Below are positions 16,875-26,249 of a stretch of 54,315 bases of DNA, piece by piece. The first letter of the stretch is position 1; each line of letters starts with the position of its first letter. The stretch is from Rubrivivax sp. (lineage in GTDB: Bacteria; Pseudomonadota; Gammaproteobacteria; Burkholderiales; Burkholderiaceae_C). The translations under genes were made by a program, and so were the position numbers. Under the pieces are notes generated by a model. It was not told where the DNA came from and did no database searches. It was given only the letters and a program-made list of their open reading frames with translations. Where the stretch lies: NCBI GenBank assembly GCA_016789955.1, contig JAEUPB010000011.1, forward strand, positions 1-54,315, in the 5' to 3' direction.

Positions 16875-17351
16875 ATGATCGCGCCGCGGGTGTCGATCCA
16901 GCACGACGACTTCGAACTCGGCGCCGAGGTGCTGAGGCTGCGCCAGAGCGACCGTGGCGTCGGCGCGGTGGCCACGTTCATCGGCACGATGCGCGACATC
17001 AACGACGACGCCTCGGTCAGCGCGATGGAGCTGGAGCACTACCCCGGCATGACCGAGCGTGCCATCGAGGCCATGATCGACGAAGCCGCCGCGCGCTTTC
17101 ACCTGCGAGCGGCGCGCGTGGTGCACCGGGTGGGCCTGCTGCTTCCAGGAGACCAGATCGTGCTCGTCGCGGTGACGGCGATGCACCGCCGCGAAGCCTT
17201 CCAGGGCTGCGAGTTCCTGATGGACTACCTGAAGACGCAGGCGCCGTTCTGGAAGAAGGAGACCACGCCCGACGGTGCGCGCTGGGTCGATGCCCGCAGC
17301 GCCGACGACGTCGCGCTGGCCCGCTGGGGCATCCAGCGCCGCAACGCCTGA
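16875..17351 (+). CDS. moaE: Molybdopterin synthase catalytic subunit MoaE
   Basis: Large subunit of molybdopterin synthase (158 residues), converting cyclic pyranopterin monophosphate to molybdopterin with MoaD as sulfur donor. GAVATFIGTMRD and LEHYPGMTE are family signatures. The active-site lysines K120 and K127 are in YLKTQAPFWKKE, matching E. coli K119 and K126. It is the last cofactor gene of the run, and the next gene (flavin reductase) begins only 13 bases later in the same direction. Confidence 0.96.
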   Translation: MIAPRVSIQHDDFELGAEVLRLRQSDRGVGAVATFIGTMRDINDDASVSAMELEHYPGMTERAIEAMIDEAAARFHLRAARVVHRVGLLLPGDQIVLVAVTAMHRREAFQGCEFLMDYLKTQAPFWKKETTPDGARWVDARSADDVALARWGIQRRNA

Positions 17352-17364
17352 GGGCCCGGCCCGG

Positions 17365-17859
17365 ATGGACGTCGCCGTGACCATCGAGCCCCGCGCGCTG
17401 CGCCACGCGCTCGGCCGCTTCGCCACCGGCGTGACCATCGTCGCCTGCGAGGACGCGGCCGGCGCGCGCGTCGGCCTGACCTGCAACTCGTTCAACGCAC
17501 TGTCGCTGGAGCCGCCGCTGGTGCTGTGGTCGCTGCGCTTGGCGAGCCCCAGCCTGCCGGCGTTCGTCGCGGCGCGGCACTTTTCGGTGAACGTACTGGC
17601 CGAAGCGCAACTCGACCTGGCCCGGCGTTTCGCGCAGTCGATCGGCGACAAGTTCGACGAAGGCGTGTGGAGCGCCGGCCTCGGCCACGCCCCGGTGCTC
17701 ACCGGCTGCGCGGCGGTGTTCGAGTGCGAGACGGTCTCGCAACAGGTCGCCGGTGACCATCGGCTGTTCATCGGCCGCGTGCTTCGCATGGTCGAGGCGC
17801 CGGTGCCGCCGCTGTTGTTCCAGGCCGGGCACTACCGGATGCTGGGGGAGATCTTGTGA
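17365..17859 (+). CDS. Flavin reductase-domain protein (two-component monooxygenase reductase type)
   Basis: A 164-residue protein of the FMN-binding split-barrel flavin reductase family (HpaC/NtaB-like). Such proteins use NAD(P)H to make free reduced FMN or FAD for a partner oxygenase. Typical elements are FATGVTIVAC, GLTCNSFNALSLEPPLVLWS, HFSVNVLAE and GDHRLFIGRV. The ATG at 17365 gives family length. Its stop overlaps the start of the NicX-like gene. The presence of a reductase implies a flavin-dependent oxygenase partner; the best local candidate is the acyl-CoA-dehydrogenase-like protein three genes on. That partnership is inference. Confidence 0.88.
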   Translation: MDVAVTIEPRALRHALGRFATGVTIVACEDAAGARVGLTCNSFNALSLEPPLVLWSLRLASPSLPAFVAARHFSVNVLAEAQLDLARRFAQSIGDKFDEGVWSAGLGHAPVLTGCAAVFECETVSQQVAGDHRLFIGRVLRMVEAPVPPLLFQAGHYRMLGEIL

Positions 17860-18893
17860 CGGATGTGCGCCTCGAAGGCAAGTGGATCGACATGTTCGCC
17901 GACGTGTTCGCGCTCTGCGGCGTGCAGCCCGGCGACGCCTGCGCGGTGCTCTGCGAAGGCGGTACGCGGCCCGAGCTGCCGCGCCTGGCCGAACTGGCGC
18001 TGCAGCGCCTGAAGGCCGAGGTCTTCGTGCTGACGCTGCCGTCGCGCAAGCTGACGGCACCGGTGCCGGTGCGCTCCACCGGCGCGTCGGAGGCGATCGG
18101 CGGGCTCGAGCCGGTGGTGCGCGCATTGGCCGCCTGCACGTTCGTCGCCGACTGCACGGTGGAAGGGCTGCAACATGCCGCCGAGCTGCCGCGCATCCTC
18201 GGCGGCGGTGCGCGCGTGCTGGCCATCAGCCACGAGCACCCGGAGATCCTCGAGCGCTGCGTGCCGCGCGCCGGTGACGACGTGCCGGTGCGCGAGGCGA
18301 TGCGGCGCCTGAAGGGCGCGCAGGCGATGCATGTCACCTCGGCCGCCGGCACCGACCTGCGCGTCTCGGTGACCGGCGCGCGCATCGGCGGCGTGTGGGG
18401 TTACACCGCGAAGCCGGGCACGCTGTCGCACTGGCCGGCGGGCCTGGTGCTCGCCTTTCCCGCGGCGTCCGCCGTCGACGGCGTTCTGGTGATGGACCGC
18501 GGCGACGTGAACCTCACGTTCAAGCGCTACCTCGATGCGCCGGTGCGCCTGCAGATCGAGCACGACGTGGTGACACGGGTGGAGGGCGACGGCGTCGACG
18601 CCGAACTGATGCGCGGCTACTTCGCGGCGTGGAACGATCCCGCCGCCTACGCGGTATCGCATCTGGGCTGGGGCCTGAACCGCGGCGCGCGCTGGGATGC
18701 GATGACCTTCTACGACAAGGCCGACTTCAACGGCACCGAGCTGCGCGCGTTCGCCGGCAACTTCCTGTACTCCACCGGTGCCAACGAGGTGGCCGGGCGG
18801 CACACCGCCGGGCACTTCGACCTGCCGCTGCGCGGTTGCACCGTGGCGCTGGACGGGCAGGTGGTCGTGGATGCCGGGAGGCTCGTGGAATGA
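17856..18893 (+). CDS. NicX-like 2,5-dihydroxypyridine 5,6-dioxygenase
   Basis: A 345-residue protein resembling Pseudomonas putida NicX, a mononuclear Fe(II) extradiol-type dioxygenase that opens 2,5-dihydroxypyridine to N-formylmaleamate. By memory of that protein the similarity is strongest from residue 180 on: HWPAG, GDVNLTFKRYL, SHLGWGL, GNFLYSTGANE, GHFDLPLRGC. The iron ligands of NicX (two His and an Asp) correspond to H269, H320 and D322, all present. H107 and H192 correspond to its proposed catalytic histidines. The wider family also contains aminopeptidase T-like (M29) proteins, so identity of the substrate is not proven. It overlaps both neighbours (reductase before, NicD-like hydrolase after), and this pairing strongly supports a role in pyridine-ring opening. 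Confidence 0.82.
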   Translation: MTDVRLEGKWIDMFADVFALCGVQPGDACAVLCEGGTRPELPRLAELALQRLKAEVFVLTLPSRKLTAPVPVRSTGASEAIGGLEPVVRALAACTFVADCTVEGLQHAAELPRILGGGARVLAISHEHPEILERCVPRAGDDVPVREAMRRLKGAQAMHVTSAAGTDLRVSVTGARIGGVWGYTAKPGTLSHWPAGLVLAFPAASAVDGVLVMDRGDVNLTFKRYLDAPVRLQIEHDVVTRVEGDGVDAELMRGYFAAWNDPAAYAVSHLGWGLNRGARWDAMTFYDKADFNGTELRAFAGNFLYSTGANEVAGRHTAGHFDLPLRGCTVALDGQVVVDAGRLVE

Positions 18894-19648
18894 CGGCGGG
18901 CCGCACCCGGCCGCGTGTGCTGCTGCTGCACGGCATCGGCGGCGGCGCGGCGATCTGGGGGGCTTCCGGCTCGGGCACCGTCGCCGCGCTGGAAGCGGCC
19001 GGCTGCGCGACAAAGGCCCTGGATCTGCCCGGGTACGGCGGCGCACCCGGCACGACGAGCATCGCCGGTTTTGCCGACGCGGTGCTGCAGGCGGCAGGCG
19101 ATGCTCCCGTGGTGCTGGTGGGCCACAGCATGGGCGGCATGGTGGCGCAGGAGGTGGCAGCGGTGGCGCCGCAGCGCGTGGCCGGCCTCGTGCTGCTGTG
19201 CACGTCGGCCGCGTTCGGTCCGCCGGGAGGCTCGTGGCAGGCGCAGTTCGTGGCCGAGCGGCTGGCGCCGCTCGAGGCCGGCATCGGCATGGCCGGCATG
19301 GCCGAACGGCTGGTGCCCGGGCTGGTGGCGCCGCAGGCAGGAAACGGGCCGCGCCGCATCGCCACCCAGGTGATGTCGGCGGTGCCCGAGGCCACCTACC
19401 GGCGGGCGCTGGTGGCGATCGCAGCCTTCGACCGCCGCGAGGCACTCGCCCGCATCGGCGTGCCGACGCTGGTGGTGGCCGCCGAGCATGACCGCACCGC
19501 AGCGCCCGAGGTGATGCGGCGCATGGCCGACCGCATCCCCGGCGCGGAGTACACCTGCCTGGCCGACGCCGGCCACATCGCGAACGTGGAGCAGCCGCGG
19601 GCCTTCCACGCCGTGCTCCTGGACTTCCTCACGCGACGCTTCCCATGA
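18890..19648 (+). CDS. Alpha/beta hydrolase, probable N-formylmaleamate deformylase (NicD-like)
   Basis: A 252-residue alpha/beta hydrolase. It has LLLHGIGGG (oxyanion region), nucleophile S80 in VGHSMGG, Asp201 in AAEHDRTAAP and His229 in DAGHIANVEQP. In nicotinate degraders NicD removes formate from N-formylmaleamate, the product of NicX, and the two genes are normally adjacent; here they overlap by ATGA. In NicD the acidic triad residue is reported at an unusual earlier position, whereas this protein keeps a canonical D201. A different substrate, such as a lactone or CoA ester, therefore cannot be excluded. Cytoplasmic, no signal peptide. Its stop overlaps the start of the next gene. Confidence 0.72.
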   Translation: MTAGRTRPRVLLLHGIGGGAAIWGASGSGTVAALEAAGCATKALDLPGYGGAPGTTSIAGFADAVLQAAGDAPVVLVGHSMGGMVAQEVAAVAPQRVAGLVLLCTSAAFGPPGGSWQAQFVAERLAPLEAGIGMAGMAERLVPGLVAPQAGNGPRRIATQVMSAVPEATYRRALVAIAAFDRREALARIGVPTLVVAAEHDRTAAPEVMRRMADRIPGAEYTCLADAGHIANVEQPRAFHAVLLDFLTRRFP

Positions 19649-20883
19649 TGCACATCGCCGGAAACACCGATACGCTCACCGCGCAACAGCGCGAGCTGAT
19701 CGCGCTGGCCGCCACGCTCGGCGCCGAGAAGTTCGCGCCACGCGCCGCCTCGCACGACCGCGACGCCACGTTCCCGTTCGACAACTACGATGACCTGCGC
19801 CGTGCCGGGCTGCTGGCGATCTGCGTGCCGAAGGCCTACGGCGGCCAGGGCGCCGACTTCGCCACCTACGTGATGGTGGCTGCCGAGATCGGCCGCCACT
19901 GCGGCTCGACGGCGCTCTCGTACAACATGCACGTGTGCTCGTGCCTGTGGAGCGGCCTGATCGCCGACGCGCTGGACATGACGCCCGAGCAGCGCGCCGA
20001 CCACGAGAAGAACCGCGCGATCCACTACGCCAACATCGTCGAGCGCGGGCAGATCTACTCGCAGCCGTTCAGCGAAGGCGGCGCCGCGGCGGCCGGCAAG
20101 GCGCCGTGGGGCACGCTGGCGCGGCGGGTGGACGGGGGCTACGTCGTCAGCGGCCGCAAGATCTTCGCGTCGCTGTCGGGCGCCGCCGACTACTACGGTG
20201 TGCTGTGCACGATCGACGTCCCCGGCGCCACGCTGCGCGATTCGCTGTACCTGGCCGTGCCCGCCACCGCCGAGGGCGTGAGCGTCGTCGGCGACTGGGA
20301 CCCGCTGGGCATGCGCGGCACCGTCAGCCGCACGCTGCTGCTGAAGGACGTGTTCGTGCCCGGGACCGCGCGGTTGATGCCCGAGGGCCTGTACTTCCAG
20401 GCCGCCGCACGCTTTCCGCACATGTTCGCCACGCTGTCGCCCACCTACATGGGCCTGGCGCAGGCGGCCTACGACTTCACGGTGGCCTACCTGCGCGCCG
20501 AGGTGCCGGGCATGCCCAAGGTGCTGCGCCGCATGTACCCGACGAAGCAGATCGCGGTGGCGCAGATGCGCATCCAGCTCGAACAGACGCGGGCGCTGTT
20601 CCTGCAGAACGCGCGCGACGCCCGCGTCGACCCCGACAAGGACACCCGCATGCGGCTCTACGCCGCGCACTACACGATCATGGAGAACGCGCAGGCGATG
20701 GCCGCGCTGGCCATCCGCACCTGCGGCGGCCAGAGCATGCTGAAGAGCCTGCCGCTGGAACGCCTCTACCGCGACTCGCGTTGCGGCTCGTTGATGCTGC
20801 CGTGGACCGCCGAGCTGTGCGTCGACCGGTTGGGCCGCGAGTGCCTGTACGAAGCCGGCGAGCGCGACGAGGCGATCGAGTGA
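19645..20883 (+). CDS. Acyl-CoA dehydrogenase-like flavoprotein lacking the canonical catalytic Glu
   Basis: A 412-residue protein of the acyl-CoA dehydrogenase superfamily (N-terminal helical, middle beta and C-terminal helical domains). Fold-typical segments include LRRAGLLAICVPKAYGG and DPLGMRGTVSRT. Two usual catalytic signatures are changed. The substrate/FAD motif TEPGAGSD is replaced by FSEGGAAAAG (142-151). The C-terminal EGT, whose Glu is the base in many dehydrogenases, is replaced by PWTAE (386-390). Such changes are common in flavin-dependent monooxygenases with this fold (DszC, HsaA), which need a separate flavin reductase, and one is encoded three genes upstream. It overlaps the hydrolase gene before it and is followed by an acyl-CoA ligase. 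Either a CoA-thioester dehydrogenase with a displaced base or an oxygenase is possible. Confidence 0.75.
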   Translation: MMHIAGNTDTLTAQQRELIALAATLGAEKFAPRAASHDRDATFPFDNYDDLRRAGLLAICVPKAYGGQGADFATYVMVAAEIGRHCGSTALSYNMHVCSCLWSGLIADALDMTPEQRADHEKNRAIHYANIVERGQIYSQPFSEGGAAAAGKAPWGTLARRVDGGYVVSGRKIFASLSGAADYYGVLCTIDVPGATLRDSLYLAVPATAEGVSVVGDWDPLGMRGTVSRTLLLKDVFVPGTARLMPEGLYFQAAARFPHMFATLSPTYMGLAQAAYDFTVAYLRAEVPGMPKVLRRMYPTKQIAVAQMRIQLEQTRALFLQNARDARVDPDKDTRMRLYAAHYTIMENAQAMAALAIRTCGGQSMLKSLPLERLYRDSRCGSLMLPWTAELCVDRLGRECLYEAGERDEAIE

Positions 20884-20902
20884 CGCCGTTGGGAGCCGAG
20901 CC

Positions 20903-22318
20903 ATGGTCATGAAGATGCTCACCCGCCACCTCGACGCGCGCGAGCCCGACTCGCCGCTGTTCGTGGAGGGCGGCAAGACGATGACCACCTCGCAGTTCGT
21001 GCGCAAGGTCGGTTTCGCGTCGGCGGAGCTGTGGACCTCCGACCTCACAGGCGGCCGCGTCGTCGCCTGGCTCGGCCACAACAGCATCCGCATGCTCGCC
21101 TACCTCTTCGCCTGCCATCGGGCGGGCGCGGTGTTCATGCCGCTGAACTGGCGGCTGGCGCTGCCGGAACTGCGTGCGCAGCTGCGGCACGCCGGTGCGT
21201 GCGCCTTGATGCACGACGATGCCCACGCCGAGCTGGCCGCGCAACTGCAGGGCGACTTGGCACCGCGCGACGAGCCGGCCGACGGCGTCGAGCCGGGCGA
21301 CGTGCTGCTGGTCTACACCTCGGGCACCACCGGCGAGCCCAAGGGGGCGATGCACACCAAGCAGGGCCTGGCCGCCAACATCGAGGCGGCGATCGCCGCT
21401 CAGCATCTGAAGAAGAAGACCAAGACGCTGGCGGTGCTGCCGATGTTCCACATGGGCGGCCTGGCGATCCAGGTGCTGCCGACGCTGGCCGCGGGCGGGC
21501 AGGTGATGATCCACCCGCGCTTCGAGGCCGAGGCGTGGTTCGATGCCGTTGCGCGCTGGCGGCCGCACACCACGCTGCTGGTGCCGGCGGTGATGCGGGC
21601 GCTGGTCGAGCACCCGCTGTGGGCAGAGGCCGACCTGTCGTCGCTGCGGTTCGTCACGGCCGGTTCGCAGATCGTGCCGCCGGCGCTGATCGACGCCTTC
21701 CATGCGCGCGACATCCCGGTGGCGCAGGTCTACGGTGCCACCGAAACCGGCCCGGTGTCGCTGGTGGTGGAGCCCCGCGAGGCGATGGATTTCCCCGATC
21801 GCAGCGGGCGCGCGGCGCCCGGTGTGGAGGTCCGGCTCGCCGAAGACGGCGAGATCCTGCTGCGCGCGCCGAACCTGATGCGCGGCTACCACCGCCACGC
21901 CGAACCGTCGTTCGACGCCGAAGGCTGGTTCGCCACCGGCGACCTGGCCGTCGACCACGGAGAGGGCTGGTACGAGGTGGTTGGCCGCAGCAAGGAACTG
22001 ATCATCTCCGGTGGCGAGAACATCCACCCGGCCGAGATCGAGAACCTGGTGGCCCAGTTCCCGGGCGTGGCCGAGTGCGCGGTGGTGGGCCTCCGCGACG
22101 AGCGCTGGGGCGAGGTGCCGATCCTCGCGGTGGTGCCGCGCGCGGGCGAGACCTTCGACGAGCAGGCGCTGCTCGACGTGCTGCGCCTCGCGCTGGCGCG
22201 GTTCAAGATCCCGCGTCGGGTGGTGCTGCTGCCCGAGCTGCCTCGCACGGCGCTGGGCAAGGTGCAGCGCGGCGCCCTCGCCAAGTCCCTGGCCGGGGGC
22301 GGTATTCCGGACCTCTGA
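20903..22318 (+). CDS. AMP-forming acyl-CoA/aryl-CoA ligase
   Basis: ANL-superfamily ligase of 471 residues, on the short side for the family. The P-loop is VYTSGTTGEPKGAMHT (about 136-151), the adenine-contacting YGATETG lies near 277, the hinge region is GRSKELIISGGENIHPAEIE, and the catalytic lysine is K453 in RTALGKVQRG. It would join an organic acid to CoA using ATP. The substrate is not predictable. The context (NicX/NicD homologues, flavoprotein) suggests a pyridine- or other ring-carboxylate or a pathway intermediate. GGGAG (20891-20895) seven bases before the ATG supports this start. It ends the catabolic block. Confidence 0.88.
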   Translation: MVMKMLTRHLDAREPDSPLFVEGGKTMTTSQFVRKVGFASAELWTSDLTGGRVVAWLGHNSIRMLAYLFACHRAGAVFMPLNWRLALPELRAQLRHAGACALMHDDAHAELAAQLQGDLAPRDEPADGVEPGDVLLVYTSGTTGEPKGAMHTKQGLAANIEAAIAAQHLKKKTKTLAVLPMFHMGGLAIQVLPTLAAGGQVMIHPRFEAEAWFDAVARWRPHTTLLVPAVMRALVEHPLWAEADLSSLRFVTAGSQIVPPALIDAFHARDIPVAQVYGATETGPVSLVVEPREAMDFPDRSGRAAPGVEVRLAEDGEILLRAPNLMRGYHRHAEPSFDAEGWFATGDLAVDHGEGWYEVVGRSKELIISGGENIHPAEIENLVAQFPGVAECAVVGLRDERWGEVPILAVVPRAGETFDEQALLDVLRLALARFKIPRRVVLLPELPRTALGKVQRGALAKSLAGGGIPDL

Positions 22319-22375: not shown

Positions 22376-23575
22376 ATGGCCAGGTCTGTCTCGCGCTGGG
22401 CGTGCATCGTCGCAGCGGCATGGGTGGTCGCCGGCTGCGGAGCAGGGAGCGACGACGCCGGTCGGCCCACGGCCACGCCGGGCGGCGTGGTCACCGAACT
22501 GAGGGCGCGGGCACTGGCCGTGTCGGCGGCTGCGGCCGCCGTGGCGCCGGACGAAGCTGCCCGCCAGCTGATGGACCACGCCGAAGCGGTGTTCGCGACC
22601 TACTTCCCCGGCCACCCGGCGACGCAGGTGCTGGCCCCGTTCCACTACCGCTACTACCCGGCGACCGGCGTCTACCTCGGCGTGGTGGTGTCGGAATCGG
22701 CCGGCTACGAGTACCTGGGCGTGTACGTGATGGGCGGGCCGTTCGGCAGTGCACCGGCCTACGTGGGGCCGCTGGCGAGCTACATCACCCCGGTGCCACC
22801 CGCCACCGGGCCGGGCCCCACCGGCTTCAGCAACGGCTGCCTTGAGACCCGGGATTACGACCCGATGGTGGCCGGAACCCGCACGCTGCAGGTCGACCGT
22901 ACCGAGGGGCCTGCGCCGACGTTGGTCACCTCCGAGTCGCGCACGATCGGGCCCACCGTGTTCGAAGGGCAGGCCGCCGTCGAGTTCCGCTGGGCCTGGG
23001 CCGACGGCGACCACCGTGACGGCCTGCCCGAAAGCGCCTGGCTCGGCATGGACCAGCGCAGCTATGCCCGGCAGACCGGCTCCGGCGAGATGACGTACTA
23101 CGGCAGCACGACCGCGACGGACCGCACCGACTCGATCCCGGGCGGTGGCACCGTCACGTCGTCGTCGCGCATGCGGATCGTCAACGAACCGCCGTTCGTG
23201 GACCGCCAGGGGCAGTTGCCGCTGGGCGGCAGCCTGACCCACCGCGTCAGGGCGCGTTCGATCAGCAGCAGCACGACGACCGTGACCGGCGGACCGGTTG
23301 TCGTACCCCCGGTGGTGATCGGTCCCACCGAGTCGATCAGCGAAGGCACGCCGACCACCGTCACCTTCCTGCGCCGAGAGCGGGTGACGGTGCCGCTGGG
23401 CGCCTTCGACGCCTGCGTTTACCAGTACGAATACGGCGATGGGGGCGGCATCGGCCAGGTCTGGATCGCCGATGGGCGCGGATTCCACCTCAAGTCGACC
23501 GGCACGACCGCCGGCATCACGACCACCACCGTGGCCGTGGCGGTGACGATCAACGGCCGGCCCGTGACGCCCTGA
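22376..23575 (+). CDS. Putative lipoprotein of unknown function
   Basis: A 399-residue exported protein with a lipoprotein signal peptide: hydrophobic stretch 9-20 and lipobox VAGC with the lipidated Cys at 21. The part from about 62 to 130 ([33 protein letters not shown]) matches a motif I know from many uncharacterised Burkholderiales exported proteins. The rest is Thr/Ser/Gly-rich and likely beta-structured. No enzyme motif is seen. AGGAGG (about 22361-22366) lies about nine bases before the ATG. It sits between the catabolic block and clpB and may be independent of both. Confidence 0.75.

Positions 23576-23651: not shown

Positions 23652-26249
<2,598 letters not shown>

Follow-up and report, generated by a model that had tools for sequence, protein, structure and literature searches.

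A conserved catabolic operon of Rubrivivax and its relatives with a new NicX subfamily, possibly directed at an indole-type compound

The five-gene block and its conservation

The stretch of DNA analysed here, 54,315 nucleotides from Rubrivivax sp. (assembly GCA_016789955.1, contig JAEUPB010000011.1) and referred to as the window, carries at positions 17365-22318 five genes on the same strand (+), flanked by moaE and clpB. These genes constitute a real, conserved catabolic operon that is undescribed as far as the searches reach and whose dioxygenase belongs to a new NicX subfamily, for which the name NicX-A was coined in this analysis. Among several readings of its function, the best supported is that it acts on an indole-type substrate and feeds anthranilate or 2-aminobenzoyl-coenzyme A (2-aminobenzoyl-CoA).

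The first gene (17365..17859, +) encodes a flavin reductase (FR) of 164 amino acids and of the HpaC/C1-hydroxylase-reductase type (PF01613, 1.6e-38). It is followed by the gene of the NicX-type Fe(II) dioxygenase NicX-A (17856..18893, +; 345 amino acids, GTG start), a protein without any Pfam or NCBIfam match that aligns with the NicX structure PDB 7cn3 across 334 residues (phmmer, 5.6e-59). The remaining genes encode an alpha/beta hydrolase (ABH; 18890..19648, +; 252 amino acids, PF00561), a flavoprotein with the acyl-CoA dehydrogenase fold (ACAD; 19645..20883, +; 412 amino acids, PF02771/PF00441) and an AMP-forming acyl/aryl-CoA ligase (LIG; 20903..22318, +; 471 amino acids, PF00501/PF13193). 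Three of the four junctions overlap by 4 bases and the last gap, between ACAD and LIG, measures 19 bases, which bears out the tightly spaced or overlapping arrangement at these positions described by the original prediction, made from the sequence alone.

To follow the block in other genomes, loci were gathered from a sample of 200 genomes of the same family (26 NicX-A loci besides the window, fetched with up to 20 kb), from plasmids (four loci), from named genomes (the 80 best of 586 confirmed relatives found by a scan) and from a phylum-wide sample of 398 genomes (15 loci). Neighbouring genes were counted in a set of 107 loci, which comprises the window, the same-family loci, the plasmid loci and the named-genome scan, with four rows dropped before counting: L079, L089 and L125, which are the same contigs as L039, L041 and L046, and L139, in which no NicX gene was called. 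Also left out of the counts were the classical NicX loci L061-L067 and two other regions of counted genomes (L153 and L154). A second set of 122 loci includes 76 from the named-genome scan, 15 from the phylum sample, 26 from the family, the four plasmid loci and the window.

Of the 107 loci, 94 encode the hydrolase besides NicX-A, 92 the flavoprotein, 70 the reductase and 67 the ligase, and many of these loci are cut by contig ends. The exact same-strand run FR-NicX-ABH-ACAD-LIG is found in 29 loci, and the run NicX-ABH-ACAD-LIG without FR in another 30, while dioxygenase, hydrolase and flavoprotein recur jointly from Burkholderiales through alphaproteobacteria. The five-gene set is thus far from a chance association, and the joining of ligase and flavoprotein to the dioxygenase, on which the original prediction relied, is upheld by genome comparison. 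None of the seven classical NicX loci contains a match of at least 60 bits to FR, ABH, ACAD or LIG; three of them have in common genes for an FAD-monooxygenase, a maleate-isomerase-type protein, a hydrolase and an isochorismatase, as annotated on L061. In the plasmid records, genes of the block are labelled peptidase M29 and acyl-CoA dehydrogenase.

With respect to distribution, a NicX-like match occurs in 33 of the 200 same-family genomes. In 27 of them the match has at least 54% identity and is NicX-A, and seven matches of at most 41% identity are spread over seven genomes, including G134, which has NicX-A as well. Across the phylum, NicX-A was found in 19 of the 398 genomes, so the NicX-A route may serve a considerable fraction of these bacteria for the degradation of a natural N-heterocycle. 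Rubrivivax albus (L101) and Polaromonas eurypsychrophila (L095) are among the environmental isolates with the block. Two loci from different named orders (L119 and L127; Kordiimonadales IMCC3096 and Minwuia) show a near-identical gene order around NicX-A.

The dioxygenase NicX-A

The window dioxygenase holds all four iron ligands of NicX: the H269, H320 and D322 already recognised in the original prediction and, in addition, S306. A tree separates 122 NicX-A sequences from 19 classical NicX sequences by a single branch with a support of 1.0. Residues were compared over these two sets with the roles given in an excerpt of PMC7910607, according to which E177 of NicX forms hydrogen bonds with N1 and O1 of 2,5-dihydroxypyridine. 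The iron ligands (H265/S302/H318/D320 in NicX) and R293 are conserved in all 121 NicX-A sequences that span them and in 19/19 classical sequences, and H189 in 121/122 (the exception being L199) and 19/19, respectively. H105 is present in 122/122 NicX-A but in only 3/19 classical sequences.

The substrate pocket tells a different story. The E177 position is Glu in none of the 122 NicX-A sequences (V in 60, G in 26, N in 22, T in nine, S in four and I in one; V180 in the window), but it is kept in 18 of the 19 classical ones. The position of Y178 is occupied by Trp in 112/122 NicX-A and by Tyr in 19/19 classical proteins, that of E308 by Glu in no NicX-A and in 17/19 classical proteins, and that of C76 by Gly in 121/121 NicX-A and in no classical protein. 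These replacements suggest that the NicX-A pocket is less polar, and perhaps larger, and that it would apply the same iron chemistry to a different substrate.

The hydrolase ABH

The triad of ABH (S80, D201 and H229) is conserved in nearly every member, with Ser in 109 and Asp and His each in 108 of the 110 aligned sequences. The original prediction had named this protein NicD-like. It is 24-27% identical to three hydrolases that occupy the NicD position in nicotinate-type loci, and the column of D201 is Gly in all three, so that its catalytic acid does not occupy the NicD position; on these two grounds, the identity with NicD was ruled out. ABH is proposed instead to be a deformylase or hydrolase of the ring-opened product. 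On a rhizobial plasmid (L031:12387-13679), ABH has a polyketide-cyclase-like domain at its N-terminus, and the position of the ligase is taken by a glutamine-synthetase-like gene.

The flavoprotein ACAD and its reductase

Residues 376-390 of ACAD read RDSRCGSLMLPWTAE, and the catalytic Glu of dehydrogenases is missing from them. The segment LMLPWTAE presumably lies where dehydrogenases carry this Glu within a Y-E-G-T motif, and its L385-P386 pair is invariant in 14/14 members and, in a larger set, in 21/21. The best PDB match of ACAD is 5z8t (4.7e-38), and its nearest solved relatives are two proteins named 'acyl-CoA dehydrogenase type 2', on which no paper was found in the open-access literature. 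Next come dehydrogenases, 3m9v/4kcf, a nitrososynthase and DnmZ, and the LMLPWTAE segment aligns with the M-x-P segment of 3m9v/4kcf, the flavin N-oxygenase KijD3. The nearest PDB entry to FR is 5zc2, the reductase of p-hydroxyphenylacetate hydroxylase (1.3e-39).

Because the Glu is missing, the segment aligns with the M-x-P of 3m9v and a reductase partner is encoded nearby, ACAD is likelier an oxygenase than a dehydrogenase, and both proteins look like a two-component flavin oxygenase with ACAD as the oxygenase component, a possibility already raised in the original prediction. In the congener G094, FR and ACAD persist although the ring-opening genes are missing, which fits such a two-component enzyme. 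FR may equally have a function of its own, as the congener G195 keeps FR only.

Some FR genes are longer than that of the window. One is extended by a MarR-like tail, as read from the sequence (L059:8362-9483), another has such a tail judging by its length and clustering (L054:991-2046), and a third is fused to a LysR substrate-binding domain (Pfam; L185:3682-4845), which suggests that these proteins might be ligand-gated reductases.

The ligase LIG

LIG shows the motifs YTSGTTGEPKG at 138, GRSKELIISGGENI at 361 and ALGKVQRG at 450. It is distinct from the benzoate-type ligase that accompanies anthranilate genes, with 28% identity in the one comparison made (L050). The one benzoate-type ligase of an anthranilate cluster that was scanned reached 360 bits, below the TIGR02262 cut-off of 375. 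LIG is missing in 40 of the 107 loci, most of which retain the core, and nine of these 40 have an acetyl-CoA-synthetase-like ligase 3-8 kb away.

A role of LIG as anthranilate-CoA ligase was considered and downgraded, given the separate benzoate-type ligases found in anthranilate clusters and beside the kynureninase of the source genome. LIG more likely activates the starting acid than anthranilate, because this genome has a separate benzoate-type ligase together with a candidate 2-aminobenzoyl-CoA monooxygenase/reductase. With low certainty, LIG is assigned the first step of the route, the activation of the substrate acid.

The divergent MarR regulator

A MarR gene belonging to a single cluster is found close to NicX-A, in opposite orientation, in 49 of the 107 loci. 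For the member that was searched, the closest PDB entries are IadR of Variovorax (7kki/7kfo, 3e-26) and 3cdh (2e-23), followed by the next at 2e-12. These closest structures bind indole-3-acetate, IadR being described as an auxin-binding protein in an excerpt of PMC9613470. Two of the IadR contacts, W45 and R46, are kept in 52/52 MarR sequences and Y15 in 46/52, this set of 52 including L154, a repeat of L049. Other MarRs share this W-R pair, so that it says little on its own.

Anthranilate-related genes near NicX-A

Genes that make or degrade anthranilate were looked for within 10 kb of NicX-A. They are found in 22 of the 122 loci, in six arrangements and always within 8 kb. Kynureninase and tryptophan dioxygenase are encoded in eight Pandoraea loci and in L189, with kynurenine formamidase in seven of these nine. 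An NF006101 gene is present in L092, L097, L104 and L109, and the same gene plus a PRK08258 enoyl-CoA hydratase in L190-L192 and L194-L197. NF006101 is annotated as salicylyl-CoA hydroxylase/oxidoreductase, and its architecture (FAD_binding_3 + OYE) is that of 2-aminobenzoyl-CoA monooxygenase/reductase; the gene adjoining it encodes an acyl-CoA dehydrogenase. In G087, the monooxygenase/reductase is located ~15 kb from NicX-A. By source, the positive loci are 13/76 in the named-genome scan, 9/15 in the phylum sample and 0/4 on plasmids. The source genome of the window has an NF006101 gene on contig 101 (1367 bits) and, on contig 83, kynureninase, tryptophan dioxygenase and a divergent benzoate-type ligase.

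The same neighbour test gave 0/7 for classical NicX loci and 0/20 for BoxB loci; the pooled comparison with the latter (Fisher 0.014) was set aside as confounded by sampling. In a matched control over the same 15 genomes, 9/15 NicX-A loci were positive versus 0/24 loci of homogentisate dioxygenase (13) and phenylacetate-CoA oxygenase (11). The corresponding Fisher value of 2e-5 assumes independent loci and ignores relatedness, the loci representing three lineages, and the genomes, 14 from the phylum sample plus G087, were picked after the hits were known. Kynureninase exceeds its cut-off in 24/27 genomes, a figure that lacks a background set and is not used as evidence. Co-occurrence of NicX-A and NF006101 at the genome level (24/27 vs 91/173, p 0.0003) was dropped, since BoxB is enriched likewise.

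Flanking genes and related genomes

Upstream of the block lies moaE (16875..17351, +; PF02391, 3.1e-36), which ends 13 bases before FR and is not part of the pathway; the genes preceding it are presumably thrC, moeA and moaD, as judged by their sequences. Between the block and the downstream flank there is an orphan frame of 399 amino acids with a lipoprotein-like start (22376..23575, +), which has no Pfam or NCBIfam match and does not recur with the block. The downstream gene (23652..26249, +) is presumably clpB, as judged by its sequence. A clpB gene recurs 3' of the block in other loci, and moaE and clpB are both present in 17/107.

The source assembly comprises 5.26 Mb, is 79.6% complete and carries the block on contig 51; its single NicX-like match is the gene of the block itself. 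NicX-A is missing from both other sampled genomes of the genus. The locus of G195 (L206) reads moaE-FR-clpB, with the clpB start 700 bases past FR, and that of G094 (L207) holds moaE, FR, an ACAD 69% identical to that of the window, a response regulator (Pfam), a sensor-kinase-like frame (as read from the sequence only) and clpB. These states between moaE and clpB look like stages in a stepwise loss or gain of the block.

Proposed pathway and alternative readings

The reading favoured here, tentatively and at somewhat less than an even chance, assigns to the block a catabolic role in which the nitrogen ring of an indole-type compound is opened and the product passed on to anthranilate or 2-aminobenzoyl-CoA. 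LIG would form a CoA thioester, for example of indole-3-carboxylic or indole-3-acetic acid, FR would hand reduced flavin to ACAD, and ACAD would hydroxylate the pyrrole ring. NicX-A would then split the C-C bond beside the ring nitrogen in an HO-C=CH-NH unit, the one that NicX cuts in dihydroxypyridine, in such a way that indoxyl would give N-formylanthranilate, and ABH would take off the formyl group or hydrolyse the product. A more specific form of this proposal, which is possible but doubtful, is a third aerobic pathway for auxin-like indole acids, in which the acid would be tethered to CoA, hydroxylated by ACAD, opened between C2 and C3 by the NicX-type enzyme and deformylated to a 2-aminobenzoylacyl-CoA, whose thiolysis would yield 2-aminobenzoyl-CoA. 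If this were true, NicX chemistry would be applied to the five-membered ring of indole.

Several observations weigh against an indole-type substrate feeding anthranilate. Anthranilate markers near NicX-A are found in 0/26 loci of the window's family and not at the window itself, and 100 of the 122 loci have no such neighbour in the sequence available. The BoxB control covers the window's family only, where NicX-A with its 0/26 does not differ from it, and BoxB shows the same genome-level co-occurrence (24/27 vs 83/173, p 0.00005), so the NF006101 signal is unspecific. Two of the 22 positive loci, L193 (hydratase only) and L145 (hydratase and a benzoate-type ligase), count through the hydratase alone. 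With regard to the regulator, no MarR gene lies beside the block in the window, and the carboxylate contacts of IadR are only partly kept (H32 in 27/52, S28 in 17/52). Plain indole as the substrate would leave LIG without a role in the scheme, and LIG is missing from the rhizobial plasmid loci, which encode a glutamine-synthetase-like protein. Finally, two loci from Acidimicrobiaceae metagenome-assembled genomes (L116, 2395-8050, and L130), whose NicX-A is 63-64% identical to the query, encode aminotransferases, an arginase-family protein and a different ACAD-fold protein and have no ABH or LIG, and in L119 and L127 MTTB-methyltransferase and MlrC-type genes adjoin NicX-A; these neighbours point to other or wider substrates. 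The matched control speaks for the indole-type reading and the absence of positive loci in the window's own family speaks against it, so the confidence in this reading was left unchanged.

The linked anthranilate genes and the ligase of 67 loci also agree with a third aerobic route for anthranilate itself, in which LIG would produce 2-aminobenzoyl-CoA, ACAD and FR would hydroxylate it and NicX-A would open the benzene ring. This is improbable: L154 (G087) and L196/L200 (G356) already have the monooxygenase/reductase, the hydratase and a separate benzoate-type ligase, the source genome has those genes on two contigs, which would make a second route redundant, and 40 loci lack LIG, most of them with the core kept.

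A similarly low probability is assigned to the opening of a different benzo-fused N-heterocycle with anthranilate as its end point, for example a 4-quinolone or kynurenate. The ring-opening logic and the anthranilate exit would be the same, kynurenine genes are adjacent in Pandoraea, and the N-acylanthranilate amidases of quinolone breakdown are alpha/beta hydrolases as well; but the nearest solved relatives of the MarR protein bind an indole acid, and no quinoline-specific gene was recognised among the annotated neighbours.

The substrate put forward in the original prediction was a pyridine carboxylic acid, activated or hydroxylated before homologues of NicX and NicD process 2,5-dihydroxypyridine one after the other, and this, in spite of the clear NicX homology, the full iron site and the presence of a ligase and a flavin oxygenase, is very unlikely, since E177 is lost throughout NicX-A, ABH is not NicD, the linked genes lead to anthranilate, a close NicF (at least 64% identity) occurs in 4/7 classical-NicX genomes and in 0/26 genomes with NicX-A only (best 45%), and the annotated recurring neighbours include no NicC, NicE or NicF type, though a Mo-hydroxylase large subunit lies near some Burkholderiales loci. 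As to the claim that the other Nic genes are absent, it stands for NicC, NicE and NicF within the block; the source genome, in its incomplete assembly, was checked for NicF only, with a 41% match of the isochorismatase family as the best.

Comparison with known systems

A search of open-access titles and abstracts yielded no publication that links a NicX-type enzyme to indole, to anthranilate or to this set of genes, in agreement with the earlier impression that the route matches no described pathway. An excerpt of PMC7910607 gives NicX and Hpo as the only members so far of their ring-cleaving subclass. Another large clade that retains the iron site but has a rebuilt substrate pocket would extend NicX chemistry to another ring, probably that of indole.

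NicX-A resembles NicX of Pseudomonas putida in its long homology, in the His-Ser-His-Asp iron ligands and in H105 and H189, and it likely makes a like C-C cut beside a ring nitrogen; it differs in the replacement of E177, Y178, E308 and C76, in its separate clade and in its operon partners. The NicX operon includes NicC, NicD, NicE and NicF, and such genes are present at the classical locus L061, whereas the block has no NicC, NicE, NicF or NicD orthologue.

The two-component flavin oxygenases with the ACAD fold (DszC, HsaA, KijD3/DnmZ and p-hydroxyphenylacetate hydroxylase) are like ACAD in fold, in the missing Glu and in the adjacent small reductase, although the ACAD of the block is distant in sequence from every solved member. 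IacA/IacG are also two-component flavin oxygenases of this fold, and act on indoles.

The iif/ind, iac and iad pathways for indole and auxin, as far as described in excerpts of PMC6221969 and PMC9613470, share with the proposed route the anthranilate exit (iif and iad) and a flavin oxygenase with its reductase (iif), and a MarR of the IadR type accompanies many NicX-A loci. Among the five proteins of the block, to which this comparison was confined, there is neither a Rieske IadDE nor an IifA/IifB; the block relies on NicX-A, ABH and LIG instead. The 2-aminobenzoyl-CoA pathway of Azoarcus evansii (PMC4539516, in excerpt) would be the sink of the proposed route, with candidate genes in the source genome and adjacent to NicX-A in several loci; as described there it involves no ring-cleaving dioxygenase, unlike the block.

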